Assembly: GCA_021770655.1 (NCBI GenBank)
Contig: JAETQO010000023.1
Location: 19,452-83,451 of the forward strand
Source of the DNA: Ruminococcus sp.
GTDB taxonomy: Bacteria; Bacillota; Clostridia; Oscillospirales; Ruminococcaceae
Direction of reading: 5' to 3'
Length of the DNA stretch: 64,000 nucleotides
The notes under the pieces were generated by a model, which was given only the letters and a program-made list of their open reading frames with translations, did no database searches and was not told the origin of the DNA. The translations under genes and the position numbers were made by a program. Positions 31,336 through 48,580 of the stretch are shown here, in pieces (position 1 is the first letter of the stretch; each line of letters begins with the position of its first letter).

Positions 31336-31578
31336 ATGACTTTAGACCGGCTTAAAATCGGAGAAACTGCGGTTATAAAAACAGTGGGCGGCGAAGGAGC
31401 GCTGAGACTGCGTCTGCTGGATATGGGACTTATCCCAAGAACTAAAGTAAAAATGCTGAAGCGTGCGCCAATGGGTGATCCGCTGGATATTATCGTAAGG
31501 GGATATGAGCTTACCCTCAGAGCAGATGACGCAAAGAACATAGAAATAGAACCGTTAACGGGAGGCGAAGAAAAGTGA
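31336..31578 (+). CDS. feoA: Ferrous iron transport protein A
   Basis: MTLDRLKIGETAVIKTVGGEGALRLRLLDMGLIPRTKVKMLKRAPMGDPL. Confidence 0.92.
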   Translation: MTLDRLKIGETAVIKTVGGEGALRLRLLDMGLIPRTKVKMLKRAPMGDPLDIIVRGYELTLRADDAKNIEIEPLTGGEEK

Positions 31579-33581
31579 TATTTGCTCTTGCAGGAAATCA
31601 GAACTGCGGAAAGACGACCCTTTTCAACGCACTTACAGGCTCTAACCAGCACGTCGGAAATTTTCCGGGAGTTACTGTAGACCAGAAGATAGGCGAAATA
31701 AAGGGACAGAAAAACTGCTCGGTGGTAGATCTGCCGGGAATCTATTCTCTCCGCCCATACACACAGGAGGAGATCGTTACAAGGGATTACATATTGAACG
31801 AAAGACCCGATGCAATAATCAATATAGTTGACGCGACAAATATAGAAAGAAATCTCTATCTTACCTTACAATTGCTTGAACTCAGAGTCCCGATGGTGCT
31901 TGCGCTCAATATGATGGACGAGGTAAGAGCCAACGGCGGAACTATAGACGTCAAAATGATGGGCGACGCTCTGGGCATACCCGTTATCCCTGTAAGCGCC
32001 GCAAAGGGTGAGGGTATCTCCGACCTTATCGACAAGGCTGTCGAAACGGCAAGAAACAAAACAAAACCGATAGTTACCGACTTCTGTTCGGACGATTCCG
32101 CCGTTCACCGCTGTATACACGCAGTCGTTCACCTTATTATGGATCACGCAAACAGAGCGGGAATACCGCCCCGTTTCTGCGCCACAAAGCTAATCGAGGG
32201 AGATAAGAACATCGAGGAACAGCTTGCCCTCAACGATAACGAACTTGAACTGCTTGAGCATTGTATCGTGGAAATGGAATCCGAATCACAATTTGACCGC
32301 AACGCCGCTCTGGCGGATATGCGCTACAGCTTTATCGAAAAGGTAATAGCTATAAGCGTGGTTAAATGTCATGAAAGCAAGGAGCATAAGCGAAGCGTTA
32401 AGATAGACAGGATCCTTACCGGAAAATATACCGCTATACCGGTATTTCTTGTCATAATGCTGTTGGTATTTTTCCTTACCTTCAACGTTATCGGTTCTGC
32501 ATTGTCCGACTGGCTTTCACTTGGGATCGACAAGCTTACAGAGCTTGTCGACAGAGGACTTACCGCCTACGGAATAAATCCGGTGGTTCACAGTCTTATA
32601 ATCGACGGCGTATTTGCGGGAGTGGGAAGTGTACTGAGCTTTCTCCCCATAATCGTAACGCTGTTTTTCTTCCTGTCTATACTTGAAGATACGGGATATA
32701 TGGCAAGAGTCGCCTTTGTAATGGACAAGCTGTTAAGAAAGATAGGTCTTTCGGGACGAAGCTTTGTGCCGATGCTCATAGGCTTCGGATGCTCGGTGCC
32801 TGCAATTATGGCGACAAGAACGCTGGTTTCGGACAGAGACAGAAAAATGACCATTATGCTCACGCCGTACATGAGCTGTTCTGCAAAAATCCCGATATAC
32901 GCCGTATTCTGCGCCGCCTTCTTTGAAAAATATCAGGCGCTTGTAATGATCGGACTTTACGTTACGGGAATGATACTGGGCGTGATCGTTGCGCTTATCT
33001 TAAAGAATACGGCTTTCCGCGGAAATCCCGTACCTTTCGTAATGGAACTTCCGAACTACCGTCTGCCCTCCGCCAAGAGCGTTGCACTTCTCCTTTGGGA
33101 TAAAGCAAAGGATTTTATCCAGAAAGCCTTTACGGTCATCTTCGTGGCAACTATAATCATCTGGTTTTTGCAGACCTTCGACGCAAGACTGAACGTTGTA
33201 AAGAGTTCATCGGACAGCCTGCTTGCGCTCATCGGTCAATCTGTCTCTCCCATATTCAAGCCGCTGGGCTTTGCCGACTGGAGAGTCACCACTTCGCTGA
33301 TCTCAGGCTTTTCCGCTAAGGAGGCTGTAGTCAGCACAATGGCAGTACTTATGAACACCAGCACCGCAGATCTGGGCGCTGCGCTTTCAGGCACATTCTC
33401 TGCCCTTTCCGCACTGAGTTTCCTTATATTCACTTTGCTGTATACTCCCTGCGTTGCCGCAGTTGCAACCATAAAAAGAGAGCTTAATTCCACACTGGCA
33501 ACTATCGGCGTAGTAATAATGCAGTGCGCGGTAGCATGGCTTTGCGCCTGCGCGGTATATCAGATAGGATCATTGCTATGA
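31575..33581 (+). CDS. feoB: Ferrous iron transport protein B
   Basis: FALAGNQNCGKTTLFNALTGSNQHVGNFPGVTVDQK; FeoB gate motifs. Confidence 0.97.
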   Translation: MIFALAGNQNCGKTTLFNALTGSNQHVGNFPGVTVDQKIGEIKGQKNCSVVDLPGIYSLRPYTQEEIVTRDYILNERPDAIINIVDATNIERNLYLTLQLLELRVPMVLALNMMDEVRANGGTIDVKMMGDALGIPVIPVSAAKGEGISDLIDKAVETARNKTKPIVTDFCSDDSAVHRCIHAVVHLIMDHANRAGIPPRFCATKLIEGDKNIEEQLALNDNELELLEHCIVEMESESQFDRNAALADMRYSFIEKVIAISVVKCHESKEHKRSVKIDRILTGKYTAIPVFLVIMLLVFFLTFNVIGSALSDWLSLGIDKLTELVDRGLTAYGINPVVHSLIIDGVFAGVGSVLSFLPIIVTLFFFLSILEDTGYMARVAFVMDKLLRKIGLSGRSFVPMLIGFGCSVPAIMATRTLVSDRDRKMTIMLTPYMSCSAKIPIYAVFCAAFFEKYQALVMIGLYVTGMILGVIVALILKNTAFRGNPVPFVMELPNYRLPSAKSVALLLWDKAKDFIQKAFTVIFVATIIIWFLQTFDARLNVVKSSSDSLLALIGQSVSPIFKPLGFADWRVTTSLISGFSAKEAVVSTMAVLMNTSTADLGAALSGTFSALSALSFLIFTLLYTPCVAAVATIKRELNSTLATIGVVIMQCAVAWLCACAVYQIGSLL

Positions 33582-33877: not shown

Positions 33878-33906
33878 TTGACTTTCCGACGAATTTGTGT
33901 TATCAT
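33878..33906 (+). promoter_or_regulatory. Promoter of the hyd/nif-like/hyp operon
   Basis: TTGACT (33878-33883) N17 TATCAT (33901-33906). Confidence 0.6.
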
Positions 33907-33973: not shown

Positions 33974-34219
33974 ATGGACACACGGGTGGCAATAATCGCT
34001 ATTATCGCCCACGGCAGCGGCTCTGCGCAGGAAATAAATGCCCTGCTTCACGATTACGCCGACTATATAATCGGCAGAATGGGACTTCCCTATAGGGAAA
34101 AAGAAATGAACATAATAAGCGTCGCAATAGACGCGCCGCAGGATAAAATAAATACTCTTGCGGGCAGGATAGGACGTATCGAAGGCGTTACGGCAAAGAT
34201 ACTCTACTCCCCCGCATAA
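33974..34219 (+). CDS. TM1266-like iron-only hydrogenase system regulator (ACT/NikR-C-like fold)
   Basis: MDTRVAIIAIIAHGSGSAQEINALLHDYADYIIGRMGLPYREKEMNIISVAIDAPQDKINTLAGRIGRIEGVTAKILYS; family typically adjacent to hyd maturases. Confidence 0.8.
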   Translation: MDTRVAIIAIIAHGSGSAQEINALLHDYADYIIGRMGLPYREKEMNIISVAIDAPQDKINTLAGRIGRIEGVTAKILYSPA

Positions 34220-34382
34220 GTTGGTTTTACCTGATCAATCAAATAGACATAATGCCCCTAACGTCGAAAACAAAGCGCAAATGCCTTTCTTTAAGACGAA
34301 AGTATGACAGACTTTTTTTTACGCTGTGCGCAAAAGCCGTATCTTTCAGGGGTATGGCTTATTTTTTATGGAGGAAAAACTT

Positions 34383-35576
34383 ATGAGCTTAAATGAAACT
34401 CCGTCCGGCGAAAGAGTTCACATCGGCTTTTTCGGCAGACGAAACGCAGGAAAATCAAGCGTTGTCAACGCCGTGACAGGACAGGAGCTTGCAGTGGTCT
34501 CCGATACAAAGGGAACTACGACAGACCCCGTAAGCAAGGCTATGGAGCTTTTGCCCATAGGACCTGTAGTGATGATCGACACACCGGGCTTTGACGACGA
34601 GGGCAAGCTCGGCGAGCTGAGAGTGCGTAAAACCAGACAGACGCTCAACAAAACCGACATAGCCGTGCTGGTAACAGACTGTACTCTGCCCGACGGAGAA
34701 TGTGAAAAACAGCTTGTTGAAATATTCAAAGAAAAAAATATACCGTTTATCATTGTTAAAAATAAATGCGATCTGCTTGAAAATGTTCCCGCCGACGGAG
34801 ATAACAAAGTTTTTGTCAGCACAAAGAACAGAACCGGTATAGAAAAGCTGAAAGAAACTATAGCCGGACTTGCTCCGACAGACGACCGGAAAAGGATAGT
34901 CGGCGACCTTATACGTCCGAACGATCTTGTGGTGCTGGTAACTCCCATAGATACCGCCGCCCCCAAGGGCAGGCTTATACTGCCCCAACAGCAGACCATA
35001 AGAGATATTCTTGACGCAGACGCCTGCTCCGTTGTGGTAAAGGAATTTGAGCTGAAAAGCGTTCTCGGAAAAATATCAAAACCCGCCCTTGTAATCACCG
35101 ACAGTCAAGTTTTCTCAAGGGTTTCCGCCGATGTCCCTACAGACATTCCCTTGACCTCTTTTTCTATCCTTATGGCAAGATATAAGGGCTTTCTTGACAC
35201 GGCGGTAAAGGGCGCCGCGGCTATCGACAGATTAAAAGATGGGGATAAAATTCTCATCTCCGAGGGCTGTACTCATCACAGGCAATGCGATGACATAGGT
35301 ACGGTAAAGATACCGCGCTGGCTGAAAAACTATACGGGAAAAACCTTTGAATTTTCTTTCTCCTCCGGCGGAGGATTTCCCGACGATCTGTCGGAATACG
35401 CTCTGATAATACACTGCGGCGGCTGTATGCTTGGTACAAGAGAAATAACATACCGTATGAAATGCGCGGAGGATCAGAATATCCCCTTCACGAATTACGG
35501 CGTGGCAATAGCCTTTATGCAGGGAATTTTAAAACGGAGCGTAGAAATATTCCCACATCTTCACGACGAATTATAG
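34383..35576 (+). CDS. hydF: [FeFe]-hydrogenase maturation GTPase HydF
   Basis: GFFGRRNAGKSSVVNAVTGQ P-loop; CTHH...HCGGC Fe-S ligand motifs; start ATG 34383 after ggagg. Confidence 0.95.
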   Translation: MSLNETPSGERVHIGFFGRRNAGKSSVVNAVTGQELAVVSDTKGTTTDPVSKAMELLPIGPVVMIDTPGFDDEGKLGELRVRKTRQTLNKTDIAVLVTDCTLPDGECEKQLVEIFKEKNIPFIIVKNKCDLLENVPADGDNKVFVSTKNRTGIEKLKETIAGLAPTDDRKRIVGDLIRPNDLVVLVTPIDTAAPKGRLILPQQQTIRDILDADACSVVVKEFELKSVLGKISKPALVITDSQVFSRVSADVPTDIPLTSFSILMARYKGFLDTAVKGAAAIDRLKDGDKILISEGCTHHRQCDDIGTVKIPRWLKNYTGKTFEFSFSSGGGFPDDLSEYALIIHCGGCMLGTREITYRMKCAEDQNIPFTNYGVAIAFMQGILKRSVEIFPHLHDEL

Positions 35577-35598
35577 TACCTGAAAGCGGTGAGAGCAA

Positions 35599-36648
35599 TT
35601 GAAAAACAAATTCCTCATAGACAAGCTTAACGAAAACAAAGCCCTTTCCCACAGCGAATGGTTAAAGCTTATTTCCGATCACGACAATGAGGAAAGAGAA
35701 TATGCGGCGCAAACGGCAAGGGAAATATCCGTCGGCCGATTCGGAAAAAACATATTTATAAGAGGCATCATCGAGTTTTCAAACGTCTGTAAAAACGATT
35801 GTCTTTACTGCGGGATACGCCGCTCAAATTCGGAGCTCAGCCGATACAGGCTTACAAAAGAGGAAATACTCTCCTGCTGTGAAGAGGGCTACAACTGCGG
35901 ATTCCGCACCTTTGTACTTCAAAGCGGCGAGGATATGTTTTACACCGCAGAGCTTATGTGCGAAATAATCAGGGAGATAAAAAAACGCTTTCCCGACTGC
36001 GCCGTTACGCTTTCGCTGGGAGAAAAAAGCGAGGAGGATTACCGCCTGATGTTCGAGGCAGGCGCAGACAGGTATCTTCTCCGTCACGAAACCGCCGACG
36101 AAACCCATTACCGCTCTCTGCATCCCCCGCAGATGTCATGGAAACACCGAATGAAATGTCTTGAAGATCTGAAAGAAATCGGTTTTCAGACAGGCTGCGG
36201 AATGATGATAGGCTCGCCGTTCCAAACGGCTGAGTGTCTGGCTGAAGATATGGAATTTATGTGCGCATTCAAGCCCCATATGATAGGGCTTGGACCCTTT
36301 ATTCCCCACAGTGCCACGCCTTTCAGGGATAAGCCCGCAGGCTCGCTTGAACTTACGCTGTTTCTTCTGAGCCTTTGCAGGATAATGCTTCCCGACGTGC
36401 TTCTCCCTGCCACCACCGCTCTCGGCACGATAGACCCCAAAGGCAGAGAATACGGCGTGCTTGCAGGCGCGAACGTAATAATGCCTAACCTTTCCCCAAC
36501 AGCAGTGAGAAAAAAATATATGCTTTACGACAATAAAATATGCACGGGAGATGAATCGGCACAGTGCAGAGCCTGCCTTGAACGGAGAATGAACTCCATA
36601 GGCTATTCTATAAAAATCACAAGAGGAGATCACATAAGTCATGATTAA
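35599..36648 (+). CDS. hydE: [FeFe]-hydrogenase maturation radical SAM protein HydE
   Basis: CKNDCLYCG radical-SAM motif, IRGIIEFSN..., [13 protein letters not shown]. Confidence 0.93.
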
Positions 36649-37393
36649 GCTTGCTTTTTACGGAAAGGGCGGAATAGGAAAATCCACCACCGCTTCAAAT
36701 CTCTGTGCCGCTTTGTCGGAAAAAGGGCTGAGAGTAATGCAGATAGGATGCGACCCGAAAGCCGACTCGACTGTGCTTCTGCACGGCGGCACAAAAATAC
36801 CTACGGTGCTGGAGCTTGTAAGAAACGGAAAACCCTTTACGCTTGATGATATGGTCTGCAAAGGCTACGGTTCGGTTATCTGCGTAGAGGCAGGCGGTCC
36901 CGTACCGGGACTTGGCTGTGCGGGCAGAGGAATAATCGCCGCGCTGGAGGAGCTTGACAAGAAAGGCGCTTATGAAAAATTCTCTCCCGACGTCGTGGTA
37001 TACGACGTTCTGGGCGATGTTGTCTGCGGTGGATTTTCAATGCCTATGCGAAAGGGCTATGCCGACAAGGTATTCATAATAACATCAGGTGAAAACATGT
37101 CTATACACGCCGCCGCAAATATCGCAATAGCGGTAGACAATTTTAAAGACAGAGGCTACGCAGGACTCGGCGGACTTATCCTGAACAGACGGAACGTCAA
37201 AAACGAGGACGAAAAAGTCTCCGAGCTTGCGGACGATTTTCACACCTCAGTAATAGCCTCCATTGACAGGAGCGAAACTGTAGAGGACGCCGAAAACCTT
37301 TGCAAAACCGTTATCGAAGCCTTTCCCGAAAGCGAAGCGGCAAAACAATACAGAATTCTTGCAGACGGCGTTTTGAATGTCTGCGGAATGTGA
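36641..37393 (+). CDS. NifH-like ATP-dependent reductase, copy 1
   Basis: [33 protein letters not shown] and DVVCGGF (both [4Fe-4S] Cys retained). Confidence 0.93.
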
Positions 37394-37401
37394 GGATAAA
37401 A

Positions 37402-38718
37402 ATGCTGAAGGCTATAGATCAGAATATCCCGTCGGTAAATATCGCCGAAGCCCGGTTTCCCTCGCCGTTCAGAAGCGGACTGGAATACAACGCTCCCGCC
37501 AGAGGAACATGGAATATAGTCCATACAGGTATGCTAATTCCCGAAGCGCATCAGATATTCGTATGCGCAAGGGGCTGTCTGAGAGGAGTTATACTCACAG
37601 CAGCGGAAATGAACGCTATGGACAGAATGTCATGGGTTTCTGTCAGCGAAAACGACCTTTACGACGGCACAATGGAGCAGGACGTTATCGACGGCGTGAC
37701 CGAAATATTAAACAGAATGGAAAAGCGGCCGCCCTGCGTACTGCTGTTTTTAAGCTGTGTGCATCTTTTCGCAGGCTGTGATTTCAAGATGATAATTGAA
37801 CGTCTGGGAGAAATTTTTCCCGACGTGCATTTCACCGACTGCTATATGACCCCGACTATGCGAAAGACCGTTACCCCCGACTGCCTTATGCGGAAACAGC
37901 TTTACGAACCGCTCAAAGCCGTAAAGAAAGATACAAAAACAGCCGCAGTGATCGGCTGTGACAGACCCACCGACAAAGCCTCGGAGCTTGTAGGTCTTAT
38001 AAGCACGGCAGGCTTTAAGCTTACTGATATAACGGAATGTAAAACCTACGGCGAATATCTCGATATTGCAAAAAGCTCTCTTAATATTACATATATCCCT
38101 GCGGCAAAATCGGCGGGAGATGAGCTTGAAAAAAGGTTCGGTACAAAGCATCTCTACATTCCCCTCAGCTACGGATATGAAGAGATCACCGACTGCTGTA
38201 AAAGGCTTTGCGGCGCTCTTGAAATCGATACGCCCGATTTTTCGGAGAATATCGCCAAGGCGGAGAAGTCGCTGAAAAATGCCCTCGGCATTATCGGCGA
38301 TACTCCCATAGCCGTAGATTATACCGCAACGCCCAGACCGCTGGGACTTTGCCGACTGCTTTCCGAACACGGATTCAACGTAAAGCGCTGTTATGCCGAC
38401 GTGTTTACCGATGAGGAACAGAATGATTTTGAAGTGCTTGCAAGAAAATTCCCCGACCTTGAAATATTCCCAACGGTCAACGTAAAAATGCGCTTTGCGG
38501 CAGACTGCGTACAAAAGGAAAAATATCTTGCTATAGGACAAAAAGTGGCTTATTTCTGCGGCACAGACAACTTCGTAAACATCGTTGCCGGAGGAGGGCT
38601 TTACGGTTTTGAGGGCATCTCAAAAATTGCGGAGCTTATGACAGACGCATTTTATGAGCCGAAGGACAGACGAACAGTGATTCAATATAAAGGACTGGGG
38701 TGTGAAAGCTGTTTATGA
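37402..38718 (+). CDS. Nitrogenase component 1 (NifD-like) protein, copy 1
   Basis: Cys in FVCARGCLRG, FLSCVHLFAGCD, FTDCYM; located between NifH-like and NifK-like ORFs; start ATG 37402 (track start 37300 lies inside the upstream gene). Confidence 0.85.
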   Translation: MLKAIDQNIPSVNIAEARFPSPFRSGLEYNAPARGTWNIVHTGMLIPEAHQIFVCARGCLRGVILTAAEMNAMDRMSWVSVSENDLYDGTMEQDVIDGVTEILNRMEKRPPCVLLFLSCVHLFAGCDFKMIIERLGEIFPDVHFTDCYMTPTMRKTVTPDCLMRKQLYEPLKAVKKDTKTAAVIGCDRPTDKASELVGLISTAGFKLTDITECKTYGEYLDIAKSSLNITYIPAAKSAGDELEKRFGTKHLYIPLSYGYEEITDCCKRLCGALEIDTPDFSENIAKAEKSLKNALGIIGDTPIAVDYTATPRPLGLCRLLSEHGFNVKRCYADVFTDEEQNDFEVLARKFPDLEIFPTVNVKMRFAADCVQKEKYLAIGQKVAYFCGTDNFVNIVAGGGLYGFEGISKIAELMTDAFYEPKDRRTVIQYKGLGCESCL

Positions 38719-39863
38719 CGAACGTTTCAAAAATAATTTCCATATATGCGGCGGACACATCGGGCGTATGCTCCGCTCTTTACGAGCTTGGCGGAATGAC
38801 GGTCGTACATGACGCCTCAGGCTGTAACTCCACCTACTCCACTCACGACGAGCCCCGCTGGTATGACAAGAACAGCATGATATACATTTCCGCATTGACG
38901 GAAACGGACGCTATAATGGGCAACGATCAAAAGCTTATAGACGATATATGCTCTGCGGCAAAGGAGCTTGCCCCTGCGTTTATCGCGCTCTGCGGCTCTC
39001 CGATGCCTGCAATGACGGGAACGGATATGAACTTTGCCGCCGAAGAGATCGCACTTGTCACAGGCATAGAGACCTTTGCGATCAACACAAACGGTACTCA
39101 CTCCTACCTTTACGGTGCAGGACAGGCGTTTGCAAAAATCGCCGGAAACTTTTGTACCGAAAGAAAAAAAACGGACAAAATGTCGGTGAATATTTTAGGC
39201 GCGACCCCCCTTGATTTTTCCCTGAACGGCAGTATAGAGTCTATAAAAAAGTGGCTTTGCGAAAACGGATTTTCGGTAAAGACCTGTTTTGCAATGGGTT
39301 CAGATCTGAGCGAAATATCCCACGCCCCCGAGGCTCAGGTAAATCTTGTTATCTCCTCATCGGGAATACCGGCGGCAAAGTATTTTTACGACAGGTTCGG
39401 CATACCTTTTGTTGCAGGAGTTCCCATAGGAAAAAGCTTTTCCGAAACATTGGCTCAAAACCTTAAAACGGCAGTCAAAACAGGGAAATGCCTTTTCCCT
39501 GCCTCGGAAAGAATTTCGTCCGATAACGGCTTTATTGTCACGGGCGAAAGCGTTTATGCGTCATCGCTTGCGGCGGCGGTAACGAAAGACCTGTCCATGC
39601 CCGTCAAAGTTCTCTCCACAGTAAGCGACAGCGACGACGGCTCTCTTGCAAAAGGCGACATCATCTGCCGCTCCGAAGAAGAGCTTGAAAAAGAATTTGC
39701 AAAAGCTTCTCTTGTCATCGCCGACCCGCTTTTTTCGCCCATTTGTCCCAAGGGAAGATTTTCTGCACTTCCCCATGAGGCTTTTTCGGGCAGATGCTTT
39801 TCAAAATCGATACCCAATCTCATAAACGCAGATATATCGGGACTTCTCACCCAAGGAGGATAA
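38715..39863 (+). CDS. Nitrogenase component 1 (NifK-like) protein, copy 1
   Basis: [29 protein letters not shown]; 4-bp overlap with the upstream NifD-like gene. Confidence 0.82.
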
Positions 39864-39870
39864 AAATACA

Positions 39871-40638
39871 ATGATAAAAATAGCCGTATACGGAAAGGGC
39901 GGAATAGGTAAATCCACCGTCACGGGAAATCTGGCCGCCGCTTTCGCAAGCCTCGGAAAGCGCGTGATACAAATAGGCTGCGACCCCAAGGCGGACTCTA
40001 CCATAAATCTGCTGGGCGGCGAACCCGTCACCCCTGTTATGAACTACCTCAGAGAACACGACGACGAACCGACAAGCGTCGAAGAAATCTCAAAGCAGGG
40101 TTTCGGAGGGGTTCTCTGCATAGAAACGGGAGGCCCTACTCCGGGGCTTGGCTGCGCAGGCAGAGGAATAATCACAACCTTCAGTCTGCTGGAAGACCTT
40201 AAGCTGTTTGAAAAATATAAACCCGACGTGGTGCTTTACGATGTTCTGGGCGACGTGGTCTGCGGAGGCTTTGCCGCACCTATAAGAGAGGGCTACGCCT
40301 CAAAGGTGCTTATCGTTACCTCGGGAGAAAAAATGTCTCTCTATGCCGCAAACAATATCAACAGCGCAGTAAAGAATTTTGCCGACCGAAGTTATGCAAA
40401 GGTAAGAGGGATAGTCCTTAACCGACGGGCGGTGGAGGACGAAGAACGCAAGGTAACGGAGTTTGCCGAAAAAGCAGGGCTTTCCATAGTCGCAGACATT
40501 CCCAGGAGCGGCGATATTATCCGCTTTGAGGATATGGGAAAAACCGTTATCGAGGGCGACCCGGAATGTGAAACAAGCAAGCGCTTTTTCGAGCTTGCAA
40601 AGCTTCTTCTGAACGACGGAGAAAATGAAAATGAATAA
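39871..40638 (+). CDS. NifH-like ATP-dependent reductase, copy 2
   Basis: [56 protein letters not shown] resembles canonical NifH. Confidence 0.94.
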
Positions 40639-41941
40639 GGCTTACTGTATAACCGCCGATGAACTGGCGGAAAGAGGATATAAAAACATACCGGACGAAC
40701 TGCTTTCGGCAAAGCACCTCATCTACAGCTCTCCGGCCACACTGGCGTTCAATTCACCCGGAGCGCAGGGATTCGGCGTAAAAAGAGCGGGACTTGCCGT
40801 ACCGGGTTCGGTAATGCTTCTGGTCTCTCCCGCCTGCTGCGGACGGAACACCTCGGCGCTGGGCGCTGAAAGCAGCTATGCCGACAGGTTTTTCTATCTG
40901 CTGCTGGACGATACCGACATCGTCACAGGCAGACATCTCAGCAAGATTCCACAGGCAGTAAAAGAGGTCTGCGACAGTCTTGACTATACTCCCTCTGCGG
41001 TGATGATATGTATAACCTGCGTTGACGCCCTGCTGGGAACGGATATGGAAAGAGTGTGCAGAAAATGCTCCGATTTTGCAGGCGTTCCTACTGTACCCTG
41101 CTATATGTACGCACTCACCAGAGAAAAACGGCTCCCGCCTATGTCGGCGGTAAGAAAATCGGTCTATTCGCTTTTAAAGCCTACAAAGAGAAGACCCGAC
41201 GAGGTAAACATAATGGGATTTTTTTCACCCCTCATGGACGACTGCGAGCTGTATGCCCTTTTAAAAAGCGCGGGAGTAAAAAAGGTAAGAGAAATATCCC
41301 GCTGTGAAACCTTTGAAGAGTACGAAAAAATCGCGCAGGCAAATTTCTCTCTTGTGCTTAACACTGAGGCAAGATATGCGGCGCAGGAAATGCAGAGATC
41401 CCTTGGGATACCGAGCGTGGAGCTGTTAAGGCTTTATCAGGCAGACAAGATACATAATCAGTACCGCCTGCTGGGAAAAGCAATAGGCGCAGAGCTTGAC
41501 GACCGTGAGTATTATGACGATACTCTTAAAACCATAGAGAATTTCAAAGATAAGTACGGCGAAATAACCTTTGCCGTAGGGGAATTTTCCAACTGCGATC
41601 CTATCGAAACAGCCTTGGCTCTTTTGCGGTACGGCTTTAAGGTGTCCGAAATTTTCGCGACCGTGGGAGAACTTAACTTCTCATTTGTGAAAAAAATTGC
41701 GGAGCTTTCTCCGAAAACAAGAATATATTCAAATCTTTCCCCCACAATGCTCTATTACGAGCCGGACGGAGAGATAGACGCATATATCGGCAAGGACTGT
41801 AAGTATTATCACCCCGACGCCGTGGGAGCGGATTGGAACGAAGAGATACAGCCCTTCGGCTATGCAGGCGTAAAAGCGCTGTTCAAAGAGCTTGACAAAC
41901 AGCTTAACGGAAATAAGCGGAAGGGAGAGCGGAAACAATGA
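40625..41941 (+). CDS. Nitrogenase component 1 (NifD/E-like) protein, copy 2
   Basis: [39 protein letters not shown]; aligns by eye with copy 1 at the key Cys. Confidence 0.85.
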
Positions 41942-42978
41942 AAAATCTACTGAAATTTCTAACTCCCTTCGCCCCCGACCAGTCGGGAGCCTCGGCAGCG
42001 CTTTACGAGCTTGGCGGTCTGATCGTCATATGCGACGCAGGCGGCTGTGCAGGAAACGTCTGCGGCTTTGACGAACCTCGCTGGTTCACCCGCAAAAGCG
42101 CAATTTTCAGCGCAGGACTCCGAGATATGGACGCTATCCTCGGCAGAGACGACAAGCTTGTGGAAAAGCTGTCAAAGGCGGCACAGCAGATAAAGCCTGC
42201 TTTCACCGCAATAATCGGCACTCCCGTGCCTGCGGTCATAGCCACAGACTTCCGCGCCCTCAGAAAAATGACTGAAAAAGCCACGGGACTTCCCTGTATA
42301 ACCTGTGAATGTACAGGCACCAATTACTACGACGCAGGCGAGGAACAGGCTTTTCTGGACATATTCAAAGCCTTTGCGGAAAAATCTCTCCCCGTACAAA
42401 AGGGCAGACTTGGAATAATCGGAGCAACGCCTCTTGAAATAAGCAGTATCAGCGCAGACAAATTTATAACCGCCTGCAAAAAGCAGGGCTGGAAAGACCC
42501 TGTGTGCTACGGAATGGGAACAGGACTTGACGAGATCAAAGCCGCCTCTTCGGCAGAAAAAAACCTCGTGATCTCTCCCGCAGGAATAAAAGCGGCAGAG
42601 TATCTCAAAGAGAAATTCTCAACGCCCTATGAAATAGATTTCCCTTGTATTCCCGAAAGCGTAATAAACAGCGCTCAAAACCTGAACGGCAAAAAGGTCC
42701 TCATAATCCACACCCAGACCGCCGCAAATTCTCTGAGGGAAAAGCTTACCTCCGAATACGGCTGTGAGTGTACGGCGGCAACGTTCTTTATGCAAAAAAG
42801 TACCCTCTGCCGCAAGGGAGATTTCAAACTTAACGGCGAAGAAGACCTGCAAAACATCACCTCGCAAGACTACGACGTGGTGATAGGCGATAAAGCCCTT
42901 CGGCGCGCAATGAAAAACTTTAAAGGAGAATTTATAGATTTTCCGCACTTTGCACTGTCGGGAAATCTTACAGACTGA
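41938..42978 (+). CDS. Nitrogenase component 1 (NifK-like) protein, copy 2
   Basis: ALYELGGLIVICDAGGCAGNVCGFDEPRW, matching copy 1 motif LYELGGxxVxxDAxGC...DEPRW; 4-bp overlap with upstream gene. Confidence 0.82.
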   Translation: MKNLLKFLTPFAPDQSGASAALYELGGLIVICDAGGCAGNVCGFDEPRWFTRKSAIFSAGLRDMDAILGRDDKLVEKLSKAAQQIKPAFTAIIGTPVPAVIATDFRALRKMTEKATGLPCITCECTGTNYYDAGEEQAFLDIFKAFAEKSLPVQKGRLGIIGATPLEISSISADKFITACKKQGWKDPVCYGMGTGLDEIKAASSAEKNLVISPAGIKAAEYLKEKFSTPYEIDFPCIPESVINSAQNLNGKKVLIIHTQTAANSLREKLTSEYGCECTAATFFMQKSTLCRKGDFKLNGEEDLQNITSQDYDVVIGDKALRRAMKNFKGEFIDFPHFALSGNLTD

Positions 42979-42996
42979 TCGAAAGGAGATTCTTAC

Positions 42997-43398
42997 ATGA
43001 TTGAGGAAATAATCGAAAAACTTGAAGAAAAGCTTGACTCTGATGACTTTGAATATGTAATGGAGGACTGTATGCAGGAGCTTGACGAAAGTGGAGCAGG
43101 GATAACGGCAGTCGAACCCCTGCTCAGACTTATGGAACGCCACCCCCTTTCCGACTTCGGAATGCCCGGCGCAATTGTCCGCTATGCGGAGCAGTTTTAC
43201 GGCAGAGGTTACGAGGATATTCTCGCAAGCTCCGTTGATCGCAGACCCGCATTGCATACGGTATGGATGCTGAACAGAATTATCAACGCCAAGGAAGAAG
43301 AAACCGAAAAGGAAAAATACGAAAACGTTATGATAAACATTCTTGAACGTCCCGATGTAGAAGATGAGATAAAAAATTCGGTAAGAGAACTGTTATAA
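42997..43398 (+). CDS. Uncharacterised acidic, helix-rich 133-aa protein in the nif-like/hyp operon
   Basis: MIEEIIEKLEEKLDSDDFEYVMEDCMQELDESGAGITAVEPLLRLMERHPLSDFG...; no recognised motif; RBS gaaaggag. Confidence 0.75.
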   Translation: MIEEIIEKLEEKLDSDDFEYVMEDCMQELDESGAGITAVEPLLRLMERHPLSDFGMPGAIVRYAEQFYGRGYEDILASSVDRRPALHTVWMLNRIINAKEEETEKEKYENVMINILERPDVEDEIKNSVRELL

Positions 43399-43432
43399 AG
43401 GTTCACTCAATTTCAGTTTCAGGAGGAATAAA

Positions 43433-45727
43433 ATGAAAACCGAGATCATTCGGGTCTACGGAATAGTTCAGGGCGTAGGCTTCCGCCCCTTTGTGAGCAG
43501 AGAGGCCGACAGGCTCTCGCTTGCGGGAACGGTGTCAAATAAAGGCTCATATGTGGAGATACACGCCCAAGGAGATGAGAAAGCAGTTGACGGGCTTTTG
43601 AAGGCTCTTAAAGGAAACGCCCCCGAACGTTCCGAAGTGCTTGACGTCATCTCAGCCCATGCCGACGAACCGCCCTATGCAGGCTTTGAAATAATCGAGA
43701 GTGAAAAGGAGCAGGGAGATATATTCGTTTCACCCGATATAGGAATATGCGACAAGTGCAAAGCCGAGCTTTTCGACAGCTCCGACAGACGGTATCTGCA
43801 CCCGTTCATAAACTGCACCCAGTGCGGACCAAGACTAACTATCCTCGATTCAATGCCCTATGACAGAGTCCGCACTAGCATGAACGAATTTCCCATGTGC
43901 GAAAGCTGTGCGAAAGAGTATGAAAACCCCGAAACAAGGCGTTATGACGCTCAGCCCGTCTGCTGTAACGACTGCGGGCCGGAGGTTTATTTGATCGGCA
44001 CGGATATAAAAGGAAAAGCGGCAATAACAGCGGCACGGAAAGCAATAAAAGAAGGAAAAATAATCGCCGTCAAAGGAATAGGAGGCTTTCACCTCTGCTG
44101 TTCGGCGTCCGACGAACAAGCGGTAAAACGGCTGAGAAAACTAAAAAACCGCCCAATGAAACCCTTTGCGGTCATGCTAAAAGATATGGAAACCGCCAAA
44201 AGAGAGTGTGCTATCTCCCCGGAGCAGGAAACTCTCCTCTGCGGCTGGCAAAAGCCCATAGTTCTGCTGAAAAAGAAAAAGGGCGGAAAGCTTTGTGAAA
44301 GCGTTGCTCCCGACAATCCCAACGTAGGCGTTATGCTGCCCTATGCGCCCGTTCAGCTTCTGCTGTTTAATTACGACGACGGCATAAAAACCCCCGACTG
44401 TCTGGTCATGACCAGCGGAAACGCCTCCGGCGCGCCTATCTGCCGCAGCGACGAGGACGCCGTAAAGGAAATATCCCACTTCTGCGACCTGATGTTATCT
44501 CATAACAGAAAAATACGGCTCCGCGCCGACGACACCGTCACCGACTTTTGGGGCGGCAGACCCTATATGATAAGACGTTCCAGAGGCTTTGCTCCCCTGC
44601 CGATAATGCTTTCCGAAAACTTCGGCGGACAGGTACTCGCTATTGGCGGCGAACTGAAAAATTCCTTTTGCATAGGCAAGAAAAATCTGTTTTATCCCTC
44701 TCCCTATGTGGGCGATATGGCGGACATACGAACGGTGAACGCCCTGAAAGAATCTGTCGGGCGTATGTGCGAACTGCTTGAAGCCGCTCCCGCCGCTGTC
44801 GCCTGCGATCTTCACCCAAAATACAATACCGTTACAGCCGCCGAAGAAATGGGACTTCCCGTCATAAAGGTTCAGCACCATTTCGCCCATATCCTTTCCT
44901 GTATAGCGGAAAACGACTATTCGGGAAAAGTCATCGGCGTTTCCTTTGACGGCACAGGCTACGGCGAGGACGGCACTATATGGGGAGGCGAGCTTCTGCT
45001 CTGCGATTACAGCGGCTACGAACGCCTCGGCAGTATACGCCCATTTATTCAGGCAGGCGGCGACCTTTCCGCAAAGGAGGGCTGGCGCATTGCGGCGTCC
45101 ATAATCGGCGAAATATTCGGCGAACAGGGGGGCGATATTTGTGAAAAGCTTTCCGTTTGCGACAAAAAGAATTTCAAGGTACTGTCTGCAATGACAGACC
45201 GCAGAATAAACTCGGTAATATCCACCAGCGCAGGCAGACTTTTCGACGGCGTATCGGCGATCCTCGGAATAAGAAAAGCCTCTACCTTTGAGGGAGAGGC
45301 CTCCATGACTCTGCAATTTGAAGCGCAGAAATACAGCGAAGAACCCTTTGCGGATTACGAGCCTATGGAAAAACTCACAGCGCAAAAGGAAACGGGCGTC
45401 ACCCTCTGCACTCACGCCCTTGTAAAAAGGCTCTGCGAGAACAGACTTTCAGGCAGGGATACACCACAGCTCGCCTATGAATTTCATGCCCTGCTGTCGG
45501 ATATGATAACGGCGGCGTGCGATAAAATAAGATCGGACAGCGGCGTTTCTGTCTGCGCTCTCAGCGGCGGAGTTTTCCAGAACAAACTGCTTTTAAAAAT
45601 GACCGTGGCAAGGCTTGAAAAACAAGGCTTTAAAGTGCTTACCCACAGCCTTATCCCGCCCAACGACGGAGGAATAGCCTTAGGGCAGGCGGTGTACGCC
45701 GCAAAAATACTTGAAAGAAACAATTAA
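43433..45727 (+). CDS. hypF: Carbamoyltransferase HypF
   Basis: Acylphosphatase GIVQGVGFRPFV, zinc fingers CDKCKAELFD / CTQCGPR, YrdC domain, carbamoyltransferase HHFAHILSC. Confidence 0.96.
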   Translation: MKTEIIRVYGIVQGVGFRPFVSREADRLSLAGTVSNKGSYVEIHAQGDEKAVDGLLKALKGNAPERSEVLDVISAHADEPPYAGFEIIESEKEQGDIFVSPDIGICDKCKAELFDSSDRRYLHPFINCTQCGPRLTILDSMPYDRVRTSMNEFPMCESCAKEYENPETRRYDAQPVCCNDCGPEVYLIGTDIKGKAAITAARKAIKEGKIIAVKGIGGFHLCCSASDEQAVKRLRKLKNRPMKPFAVMLKDMETAKRECAISPEQETLLCGWQKPIVLLKKKKGGKLCESVAPDNPNVGVMLPYAPVQLLLFNYDDGIKTPDCLVMTSGNASGAPICRSDEDAVKEISHFCDLMLSHNRKIRLRADDTVTDFWGGRPYMIRRSRGFAPLPIMLSENFGGQVLAIGGELKNSFCIGKKNLFYPSPYVGDMADIRTVNALKESVGRMCELLEAAPAAVACDLHPKYNTVTAAEEMGLPVIKVQHHFAHILSCIAENDYSGKVIGVSFDGTGYGEDGTIWGGELLLCDYSGYERLGSIRPFIQAGGDLSAKEGWRIAASIIGEIFGEQGGDICEKLSVCDKKNFKVLSAMTDRRINSVISTSAGRLFDGVSAILGIRKASTFEGEASMTLQFEAQKYSEEPFADYEPMEKLTAQKETGVTLCTHALVKRLCENRLSGRDTPQLAYEFHALLSDMITAACDKIRSDSGVSVCALSGGVFQNKLLLKMTVARLEKQGFKVLTHSLIPPNDGGIALGQAVYAAKILERNN

Positions 45728-45742
45728 CGGAGGTAATGTAAA

Positions 45743-45952
45743 ATGTGCGTAGGATTATCTGCAAAGGTCGTAAGCGTTGACGACGATACGGCTGTCATTG
45801 ACGCCGGAGGAGCAAAAAGAAAGGTGTCGGCAGACCTCATCGAGGATCTTGAACCGGGAGATTACGTTATGGTACACGCAGGCGTGGCTATCGCAAAGAT
45901 CACCTCGGACGATGCCGCAGAAACCGATGAAATAATGGAAGGCTTAAATTAA
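45743..45952 (+). CDS. hypC: HypC/HybG/HupF-family chaperone
   Basis: MCVGLSAKVVSVDDDTAVIDAGGAKRKVS...PGDYVMVHAGVAIAKI; N-terminal Met-Cys. Confidence 0.94.
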   Translation: MCVGLSAKVVSVDDDTAVIDAGGAKRKVSADLIEDLEPGDYVMVHAGVAIAKITSDDAAETDEIMEGLN

Positions 45953-45982
45953 CGGAGGAAAGCTGAAAGGCTTATATGAAAA

Positions 45983-47038
45983 ATGGACAGTATAAACAAT
46001 GCAAAGGAAATCATTTCCTCATACAATCGAACAGACGGAAAAAAGCTCCGCATAATGGAGGTCTGCGGTACGCATACCCACGAGATATTTCGTCTCGGAA
46101 TAAGAAAACTCCTGCCTGAAAGCGTTGAGCTTATCTCAGGACCCGGGTGTCCCGTGTGCGTAACGCCGGTAGGCTTTATCGACGAGGCGGTCATGCTTGC
46201 GCTGGACAAAGGCGCAACTGTCTGCACCTTTGGCGACCTTATAAGAGTGCCGGGAACCGAACAGAGCCTTGCAGGCGCAAGGTCGAAAGGCGCAAAGCTT
46301 AAAACCGTCTATTCCCCCCTTGACGCGGTAACATACGCCGAGGAGCGCCCCGAAGAACAGGTGGTATTTCTTGCGGTAGGCTTTGAGACCACCACCCCCT
46401 CGGCATGCCTTGCGGTAAAAAAAGCAAAAGCGGCAAACCTTAAAAACTTCTCAGTTCTCGGCGCAAACAAAACAATGCCCAACGCCTATAAAGCGCTGAA
46501 AAACAGTGCGGACGCCTTTCTTTATCCGGGACACGTCAACGCTATAACAGGAACAAAGCTGTGCGAGGATATGACAAAGCAGGGCGTTTCGGGAGTGGTC
46601 GCAGGCTTTACAGCGGCAGAACTTCTCACCGCCCTTGCCGTAACGATAGAGCTTTCACAAAAGGGCGAGCCGTTTTTCAGAAACTGCTATACAAGGGTAG
46701 TAAAGCCGGAGGGCAACCCTGCGGCGCTGAAGCTTATGGACAAGGTCATGACCCCCTGCGACAGCGAATGGAGAGGTCTCGGCGTTATCCCCATGTCGGG
46801 CATGGTATTAAAGGACGAGTACGCAGACTTTGACGCACGGAAGAAATTCGGCCTGCCGAAGATCACAGGCAAACCGAATCCCGCCTGCCGCTGCGGCGAC
46901 GTACTTCAGGGAAAATGCAAGCCCTGCGACTGTAAGGTATTCGGCAAAGGCTGTACGCCCATGCACCCCATAGGCGCTTGCATGGTGTCAAACGAAGGCG
47001 CCTGCTCGGCTTATTATCAGTATGGACTAGAGGGGTAA
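45983..47038 (+). CDS. hypD: Hydrogenase formation protein HypD
   Basis: IMEVCGTHTHEIFR, GPGCPVCVTP, C-terminal CKVFGKGCTPMHPIGACMVSNEGAC. Confidence 0.96.
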   Translation: MDSINNAKEIISSYNRTDGKKLRIMEVCGTHTHEIFRLGIRKLLPESVELISGPGCPVCVTPVGFIDEAVMLALDKGATVCTFGDLIRVPGTEQSLAGARSKGAKLKTVYSPLDAVTYAEERPEEQVVFLAVGFETTTPSACLAVKKAKAANLKNFSVLGANKTMPNAYKALKNSADAFLYPGHVNAITGTKLCEDMTKQGVSGVVAGFTAAELLTALAVTIELSQKGEPFFRNCYTRVVKPEGNPAALKLMDKVMTPCDSEWRGLGVIPMSGMVLKDEYADFDARKKFGLPKITGKPNPACRCGDVLQGKCKPCDCKVFGKGCTPMHPIGACMVSNEGACSAYYQYGLEG

Positions 47039-47065
47039 ATCGGAAATTTGAGGAGTCTCATCATT

Positions 47066-47461
47066 ATGTTTGTTTATGAAAAAGTTACCGAACAAGACAA
47101 AGAATTATATGAAAAAGTTTCTGGATTCTGGTATCATGAGGGACTTTCCAAATGGTGTGTTGATCGGGAAAATAGAATTTATATTGTTTGCATAGGAAAA
47201 CATGGAGTTGAAACCCCAGTCGTTTTCAGAATATTATTTAAGGATCATTTGTTTGAATTTATTATCCCTGAACCCGATATTCTTTACGGAAATAAACCGG
47301 AAGTCTATGTTAGACTGCCTGCTGTTTTGGCAAGTGATAGTTCCGCTATTGAAGAAGTAATCAAACGAGCTTTTCGGGAAACAATCGGAATATCTCATTA
47401 CGGAAGTCTGCCCAGAAATATTGATGATCACACTTTTGATTTTGAGCGCTATAAATTCTGA
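47066..47461 (+). CDS. Hypothetical protein, paralog of 887-1333, inserted between hypD and hypE
   Basis: MFVYEKVTEQDKELYEKVSGFWYHEGLSKWCVDRENRIYIVCIG; ATG 47066 after aggag; visibly AT-richer than neighbouring genes. Confidence 0.75.
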   Translation: MFVYEKVTEQDKELYEKVSGFWYHEGLSKWCVDRENRIYIVCIGKHGVETPVVFRILFKDHLFEFIIPEPDILYGNKPEVYVRLPAVLASDSSAIEEVIKRAFRETIGISHYGSLPRNIDDHTFDFERYKF

Positions 47462-47512
47462 TTTATCCTGCCAATTCAAAAATAAAAACCAACCGAAAAG
47501 AGGTATAAAAAT

Positions 47513-48520
47513 ATGTCTGAAAAATACGTCACTCTCGCTCACGGAGCGGGAGGAAAACAAACGTCCGAGCTTATCGATCAGGTCTTCAAGGCTCATTTCT
47601 CAAACCCGAACCTTACCGCCGACGACGCCGCCGTGCTGTCCGTAGAAAAAGGAAAGATAGCCTTCACCACCGACGGCTTTATCGTCTCCCCCTATGAATT
47701 TGCAGGCGGAAATATCGGAAAGCTGAGTATCTGCGGAACGGTCAACGACCTGTCCTGTATGGGCGCAAAGCCGCTCTATCTTTCCTGCGCCTTTGTTATC
47801 GAGGAAGGCTTTCCGATGGAAAAGCTGGAGGAGATAGCGGCAGCAATGGAAAAGACTGCAAAGGAGGCAGGCGTTGAAATTTGCGCAGGCGACACCAAGG
47901 TCGCAGGAAAAGGACAGGTGGACAGCGTCTTTATCACCACAACGGGAATAGGCAAAGTAATGGAAAACGCCAATACATCGGGAAAGCTTGCCCGCCCCGG
48001 CGACGCCGTTATCGTCACGGGCGATATAGGCAGACACGGCTGTACGATACTGCTCGCCAGAGATGAATTCGGTATCGAGGCGGACGTGACCAGCGACTGT
48101 GCACCGCTTTGGAACAACGTCAAAGCAATGTTTGACGTGACCGACGACATTCACGTTATCAGAGACGCAACAAGAGGCGGCGTCGGCACAGTGCTGTATG
48201 AGATAGCAGGACAAAGCGGCGTGGGAATTTCCCTCGAATCGGAAAAAATTCCCGTAGCCGACGAGGTACGCGGCGTGTGCGGAATGCTGGGTCTTGAGCC
48301 GCTTTATCTTGCTTGCGAAGGCAGACTTGTGGTGTTTGCGCCAAAGGAAAAAGCGCAGGACATCGTAAACGCCCTGAGAGCCTGCAAGTATTCGGAGAAC
48401 GCCGCAATAATCGGCGAAGTCACCGAAGAAAACGCCGGAAAGGTAATAATGAAAACAGAGATCGGTTCGCAAACTCTCCTGCCCCAGCCCGGCGGCGAGC
48501 TTTTGCCGAGAATATGCTAG
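47513..48520 (+). CDS. hypE: Hydrogenase expression/formation protein HypE
   Basis: LAHGAGGKQTSELI; FTTDGFIVSPYEFAGGNIGKLSICGTVNDL; C-terminal LPRIC with terminal Cys. Confidence 0.96.
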   Translation: MSEKYVTLAHGAGGKQTSELIDQVFKAHFSNPNLTADDAAVLSVEKGKIAFTTDGFIVSPYEFAGGNIGKLSICGTVNDLSCMGAKPLYLSCAFVIEEGFPMEKLEEIAAAMEKTAKEAGVEICAGDTKVAGKGQVDSVFITTTGIGKVMENANTSGKLARPGDAVIVTGDIGRHGCTILLARDEFGIEADVTSDCAPLWNNVKAMFDVTDDIHVIRDATRGGVGTVLYEIAGQSGVGISLESEKIPVADEVRGVCGMLGLEPLYLACEGRLVVFAPKEKAQDIVNALRACKYSENAAIIGEVTEENAGKVIMKTEIGSQTLLPQPGGELLPRIC

Positions 48521-48530
48521 TGCGATTTCG

Positions 48531-48580
48531 ATAAAAAAGCAATACCCTTGTTTCAGTTTTGAAACAAGGGTATTCTTCGT
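48531..48580. terminator. Shared convergent terminator of hypE (+) and xfp (-)
   Basis: aatacccttgtttc-agtttt-gaaacaagggtatt, 14-bp perfect stem; aaaaaa before it gives a U-tract on the minus strand. Confidence 0.75.

Follow-up and report, generated by a model that had tools for sequence, protein, structure and literature searches.

A candidate HydG-independent route to [FeFe]-hydrogenase maturation built on HypCDEF and two nitrogenase-like complexes

A 14.5-kb operon lies on the plus strand, at positions 33974-48520, of a 64,000-nucleotide stretch of Ruminococcus sp. DNA (contig JAETQO010000023.1, positions 19,452 to 83,451), here called the window. The gene order is a TM1266-type regulator, hydF, hydE, nifH1-D1-K1, nifH2-D2-K2, orf133, hypF, hypC, hypD, orf137, and hypE, and intergenic spacing ranges from -14 to +151 bp. 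A first-pass annotation had singled out the hypF-C-D-E genes at the 3' end of the operon. That gene set stands, but the absence of HydG and the operon shared with hydF-hydE and nif-like genes had been overlooked. We consider it likely that the operon matures [FeFe]-hydrogenase independently of HydG, with HypCDEF and two NifHDK-like complexes in HydG's place.

The first gene (33974-34219) encodes an 81-residue member of the TM1266 family of [FeFe]-hydrogenase system regulators (TIGR03959, 103.6 bits against a cut-off of 60.8). It is followed by hydF (34326-35576; TIGR03918, 572 bits), in which the cluster cysteines are invariant. An ATG at 34383, preceded by GGAGG, is a likelier hydF start than the mechanically called GTG. 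The product of hydE (35599-36648; TIGR03956, 566 bits) falls among canonical HydE on a tree. Two NifHDK sets come next, both from the nitrogenase superfamily, each with a NifH-type ATPase and D/K-type partners. The nifH1-like ATPase (36641-37393; PF00142, 287 bits) has its Walker A motif and [4Fe-4S] cysteines intact. Its partners are nifD1-like (37399-38718; PF00148, 49 bits; C56, C60, C120, C435, and C438 conserved) and nifK1-like (38715-39863; PF00148, 111 bits; C19, C37, and C93 conserved), the latter related to NifE, NifD, and BchB structures. The second set consists of a nifH2-like ATPase (39871-40638; PF00142, 291 bits), nifD2-like (40625-41941; PF00148, 92 bits; C71, C72, C129, and C132 invariant in 80 sequences), and nifK2-like (41938-42978; PF00148, 79 bits; C32, C37, and C42 conserved). 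Neither set matches NifD or NifK of N2-fixing nitrogenase at the equivalog level, the best TIGR scores lying far under the cut-offs. The conserved cysteines of the four D and K subunits are compatible with Fe-S clusters.

The Hyp proteins are orthodox. HypF (43433-45727; TIGR00143, 768 bits) has acylphosphatase, two zf-HYPF, YrdC, and Kae1-like domains, and HypC (45743-45952; PF01455) begins with Met-Cys. HypD (45983-47038; TIGR00075, 395 bits) carries the CGTHTH and GPGCPVC motifs, and HypE (47513-48520; TIGR02124, 430 bits) ends in PRIC. The HypC Cys2, the HypD core cysteines, the HypE C-terminal cysteine, and the HypF zinc-finger cysteines are invariant across 57-69 species, so a chance occurrence of these signatures can be dismissed. 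The profile matches and these cysteines bear out the first-pass claim that the HypCDEF signature residues are all intact.

A search with NifD2 returned 253 relatives in named genomes, and the best 80 loci were read. NifHDK1 lies upstream in all 49 loci with enough upstream sequence, HydE in 40, and HydF in 28. Among loci with enough downstream sequence, HypC and HypD follow in 53/53 each, HypF in 52/53, and HypE in 50/53. Where enough sequence is available, a TM1266 regulator gene lies 5' of the cluster at most loci. Firmicutes, Lentisphaerota, and Spirochaetota all include genomes with this gene order. Among the hosts are Ruminococcus bicirculans, two R. albus strains, Lachnospiraceae, Clostridiaceae BL-3, Lentisphaerota, one Spirochaetaceae, and one Synergistaceae known from a short 3-kb contig. 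HydG, HydA (the [FeFe]-hydrogenase catalytic subunit), and the [NiFe] large subunit were counted in 50 cluster genomes, and HydF was tested in ten only. HydG scored over the cut-off in none of the 50 and HydA in every one. The patchy distribution is the one feature that would suit a decayed or selfish, functionless gene set. Such an origin can hardly be credited, given catalytic residues invariant over several phyla and a conserved gene order.

Linkage could also be read in another way. HypCDEF may build an Fe(CN)x(CO) group for a new NifDK cofactor, with HydE and HydF sharing the ligand supply and the H-cluster being made otherwise. The hyp genes lie directly 3' of nifHDK2 and travel with it, and the conserved cysteines of the D and K subunits could hold clusters. 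This explanation is improbable in our judgment, since it leaves unexplained the TM1266 regulator, the presence of HydE and HydF in the operon, and the combination of HydA with no HydG throughout the cluster genomes.

Orthodox HypCDEF proteins would also fit ordinary maturation of a [NiFe]-hydrogenase, with HypAB or the enzyme itself encoded elsewhere or missed. The host genome (2.66 Mb, 99.8% complete) has one HypD copy. A whole-genome search gave no match to the [NiFe] large subunit (PF00374) even at E<=10, and none to HypA or HypB. The HypB control was positive in [NiFe] genomes (G054, G056, G057, and G060). The HypA negative is weaker, as a single E. coli sequence served as the HypA query and matched only two of four [NiFe] control genomes. 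HypA and HypB were also not found in the ten cluster genomes tested for them. A large subunit over the cut-off, short and Ech-like, occurs in 8/50 cluster genomes, which favors the [NiFe] explanation, but 42/50 are without one. A hidden [NiFe] target was rejected on this count and on the E<=10 search. With HypD also in a separate clade, we regard ordinary [NiFe] maturation as very unlikely. The first-pass observation that HypA, HypB, and [NiFe] subunits are missing nearby thus extends to a nearly complete genome, and the counter-case it had named, hypAB together with a [NiFe] hydrogenase, was not found.

HydG (TIGR03955) had no match over the cut-off in the host genome, which encodes two HydA. 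One of these was read and its H-cluster motifs are intact; TSCCPGW, PCxAKK, and EIMACPGGCINGG are intact in the HydA sequences read. Four relatives that share the gene order (G065, G035, G071, and G114) are in the same state, with HydA and without HydG, and neither they nor the host have a [NiFe] large subunit over the cut-off. In G035, hydF is located away from the cluster. A divergent HydG was considered and rejected. The sub-cut-off matches examined are ThiH or HydE, and the stronger ones are ThiH and lack the CxxCx22C domain of the HydG C terminus. Assembly gaps are an unlikely cause, as the absence repeats in the 2-contig genome G114, in R. bicirculans, and in Clostridiaceae BL-3 (3.1-Mb contig). 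The first-pass proposal of a non-[NiFe] target tied to the co-encoded Nif-like or HydEF proteins is supported by the lack of a [NiFe] enzyme, the conserved operon, and the TM1266 gene at its head, although it had left the target unnamed. Separately, the host has a second, unlinked HydE (L252:9062-10174, contig C70) that groups with HydG-linked HydE and is possibly a remnant of a former HydG system.

Trees place the two maturase families differently. Cluster HydE is nested within the HydG-linked HydE sequences, and the tree shows several switches of label. The substrate of cluster HydE is probably unchanged because of this nesting, and one HydE probably serves with either supplier. The cluster HypD sequences, although drawn from several phyla, group in a single clade (98/98) that is separate from [NiFe]-linked HypD; long [NiFe] branches make the exact sister of this clade uncertain.

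We also examined a family sample of 149 genomes, in which HydA occurs in 145, HydG over the cut-off in 62, and HypD in 11. The 11 HypD genomes divide cleanly into six with a [NiFe] large subunit and five with the Hyp-Nif-like cluster. HypB-like genes were seen in HypD-less genomes (G008, G020, G025, G026, G031, G082, G128, and G138). NifHDK1 is present in twelve HydG-negative genomes, five with the window layout and seven with a second layout, and all twelve have HydE and HydF. NifHDK1 is associated with HydG absence among HydA genomes (p=0.0013, this sample only). Among the 59 other HydA-positive, HydG-negative genomes tested, HydF matched in four, and true HydE accompanied it only in G049, where hydG is broken. 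Of the nitrogenase-type matches in HydG-positive genomes, some score far higher, like conventional nitrogenase or other groups, and the rest are weak and, where inspected, not NifHDK1. Therefore, in this sample, true HydE with HydF accompanies either HydG or NifHDK1.

The second layout, variant B, comprises a FecCD permease, an ATP-binding cassette (ABC) ATPase, HydE, NifHDK1, a FecB-type binding protein, and HydF (loci L209, L210, L211, L212, L213, L214, L253, L254, and L259). The ABC ATPase is fused to a TM1266 domain in several genomes, and in some the parts are on separate contigs. NifHDK2 and Hyp are not nearby, and HypD is absent genome-wide from all seven variant-B genomes. The importer occupies the place that NifHDK2 and Hyp take in the window layout. 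This suggests that variant B imports the product of NifHDK2 and Hyp, and that both layouts use NifHDK1 to act on it. The cluster as the sole HydG substitute was rejected, because the variant B importer occurs and many HydA genomes have no maturases.

Published work describes the H-cluster as the product of HydE, HydF, and HydG, with HydG making CO and CN- from tyrosine and an Fe(CN)(CO)2 synthon then passing to HydE (PMC12752695). In [NiFe] maturation, HypEF makes CN- from carbamoyl phosphate and HypCD holds Fe(CN)2CO; where HypCD obtains its CO under anaerobic conditions is unsolved, and reduction of CO2 driven by ATP has been considered (PMC12134894). The pathway role that we propose rests on co-occurrence and is well supported; the chemistry is inferred. 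In broad terms, the Nif-like reductases would provide CO, ready the iron unit for HydE, or both. HypF and HypE would convert carbamoyl phosphate to HypE-thiocyanate, and the HypCD scaffold would take up CN- on iron. Low-potential electrons, most simply for reduction of CO2 to CO, would come from a Nif-like ATPase/reductase; the probable one is NifHDK2, which accompanies Hyp. Nitrogenase Fe proteins are able to reduce CO2 to CO. NifHDK1, the invariant part that also occurs without Hyp, would turn the Fe-CN/CO unit into the Fe(CO)2(CN) synthon used by HydE. HydE would then dimerise the synthon, and HydF would complete it and hand it to HydA. Candidate products of HypCDEF are an Fe(CN)2(CO), an Fe-CN, or an Fe(CN)(CO)2 unit.

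In a variant of this pathway, HypCDEF supplies CN- only and CO comes from cell metabolism, with the Nif-like complexes, for instance, reducing the iron unit or loading HydE or HydF. The unsolved origin of CO on HypCD (PMC12134894) leaves room for it, and HydE with HydF but without HydG can make weak use of free CO and CN- (PMC9431212). Against it, two separate conserved Nif complexes suggest more than one demanding reduction, and we take this variant as a possibility short of probable. The fullest form of the proposal is a second natural H-cluster route, in which HypCDEF and two nitrogenase-like ATPase reductases use carbamoyl phosphate and CO2 to make an Fe(CO)(CN) synthon. The sister layout would import a neighbor-made iron-CN/CO precursor through a dedicated FecBCD-type transporter, a form of cross-feeding with an organometallic compound. 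In this complete form, we hold the proposal to be rather doubtful.

Several points weigh against a HydG-independent role for the operon. HypCD carries Fe(CN)2(CO) and not Fe(CN)(CO)2, and therefore extra chemistry would be required. Reduction of CO2 to CO driven by NifHDK is a guess. Hyp is missing from variant B and is thus dispensable in some HydG-less systems. HydA is encoded without any of HydE, HydF, and HydG in about 55 family genomes, so its presence alone is no proof of H-cluster formation. The cluster genomes are linked by descent and gene transfer, and 50 genomes are not 50 independent events. Finally, the whole case is comparative.

The operon shares parts with known systems. As in canonical HydE-HydF-HydG maturation, there are HydE, HydF, a TM1266 regulator, a similar operon style, and an [FeFe]-hydrogenase in the genome. 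In this operon, as in the canonical TM1266-hydE-hydG-hydF operon, the TM1266 regulator gene comes first. The difference is that HydG is missing here, with HypCDEF and two NifHDK-like sets instead. HypC, D, E, and F with their catalytic residues recall HypA-F [NiFe] maturation, but HypA, HypB, and the [NiFe] large subunit were not found in the host and HypD has its own clade. A precedent lies in the group IV nitrogenase-like proteins and in the NifHEN-like genes of Coprococcus catus and other Firmicutes. There, two linked NifHEN-like copies adjoin hydrogenase maturation proteins and may aid metallocluster assembly (Dos Santos 2012, PMC3464626). That account, one sentence in the portion available to us, is extended here by the HydG absence, HypCDEF without HypAB, and the importer variant. 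In acetogenic Clostridium, HydE and HydF without HydG, and in some species HypCDEF without HypAB, were reported with no settled explanation (PMC9431212). The maturase gap is the same as here; the nif-like cluster is not considered in the available parts of that paper. Clostridiaceae bacterium BL-3 has the Hyp-Nif-like cluster, with HydG not found over the cut-off. Replacement of HydG by such a cluster was not found in the literature searched, an absence that is no proof of novelty.

Other features at the locus are less conserved or peripheral. Neither orf133 (42997-43398; 133 residues, no Pfam family) nor orf137 (47048-47461; 137 residues, no family) is conserved across loci, and both were rejected as core operon parts. 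Elsewhere, the former is known only from R. bicirculans, with a count of 1/80 loci, and the latter was found in 0/80. A promoter-like site, TTGACT-17-TATCAT with an extended -10, precedes the operon on the plus strand (33878-33906); it comes from a consensus scan only, and the number of such sites in the region is near chance. A terminator-like stem-loop with a 15-bp stem lies directly 3' of hypE (48541-48574, plus strand). Immediately 5' of the operon, on the same strand, is a feoB ferrous-iron transporter gene (31575-33581). At other loci, a HydS-like [FeFe]-hydrogenase and a 383-residue protein adjoin the cluster (L217:11085-13976, L218:8402-11272, and L136).

If the proposal is true, three bioinorganic systems meet in a route where HydG gives way to nitrogenase-like reductases and the cyanide half of [NiFe] maturation. 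Such a route would open to genetics the unsolved question of where the CO on HypCD comes from under anaerobic conditions, and might account for the reported HydG-less acetogens. It would also explain [FeFe]-hydrogenase maturation in many gut and rumen bacteria.

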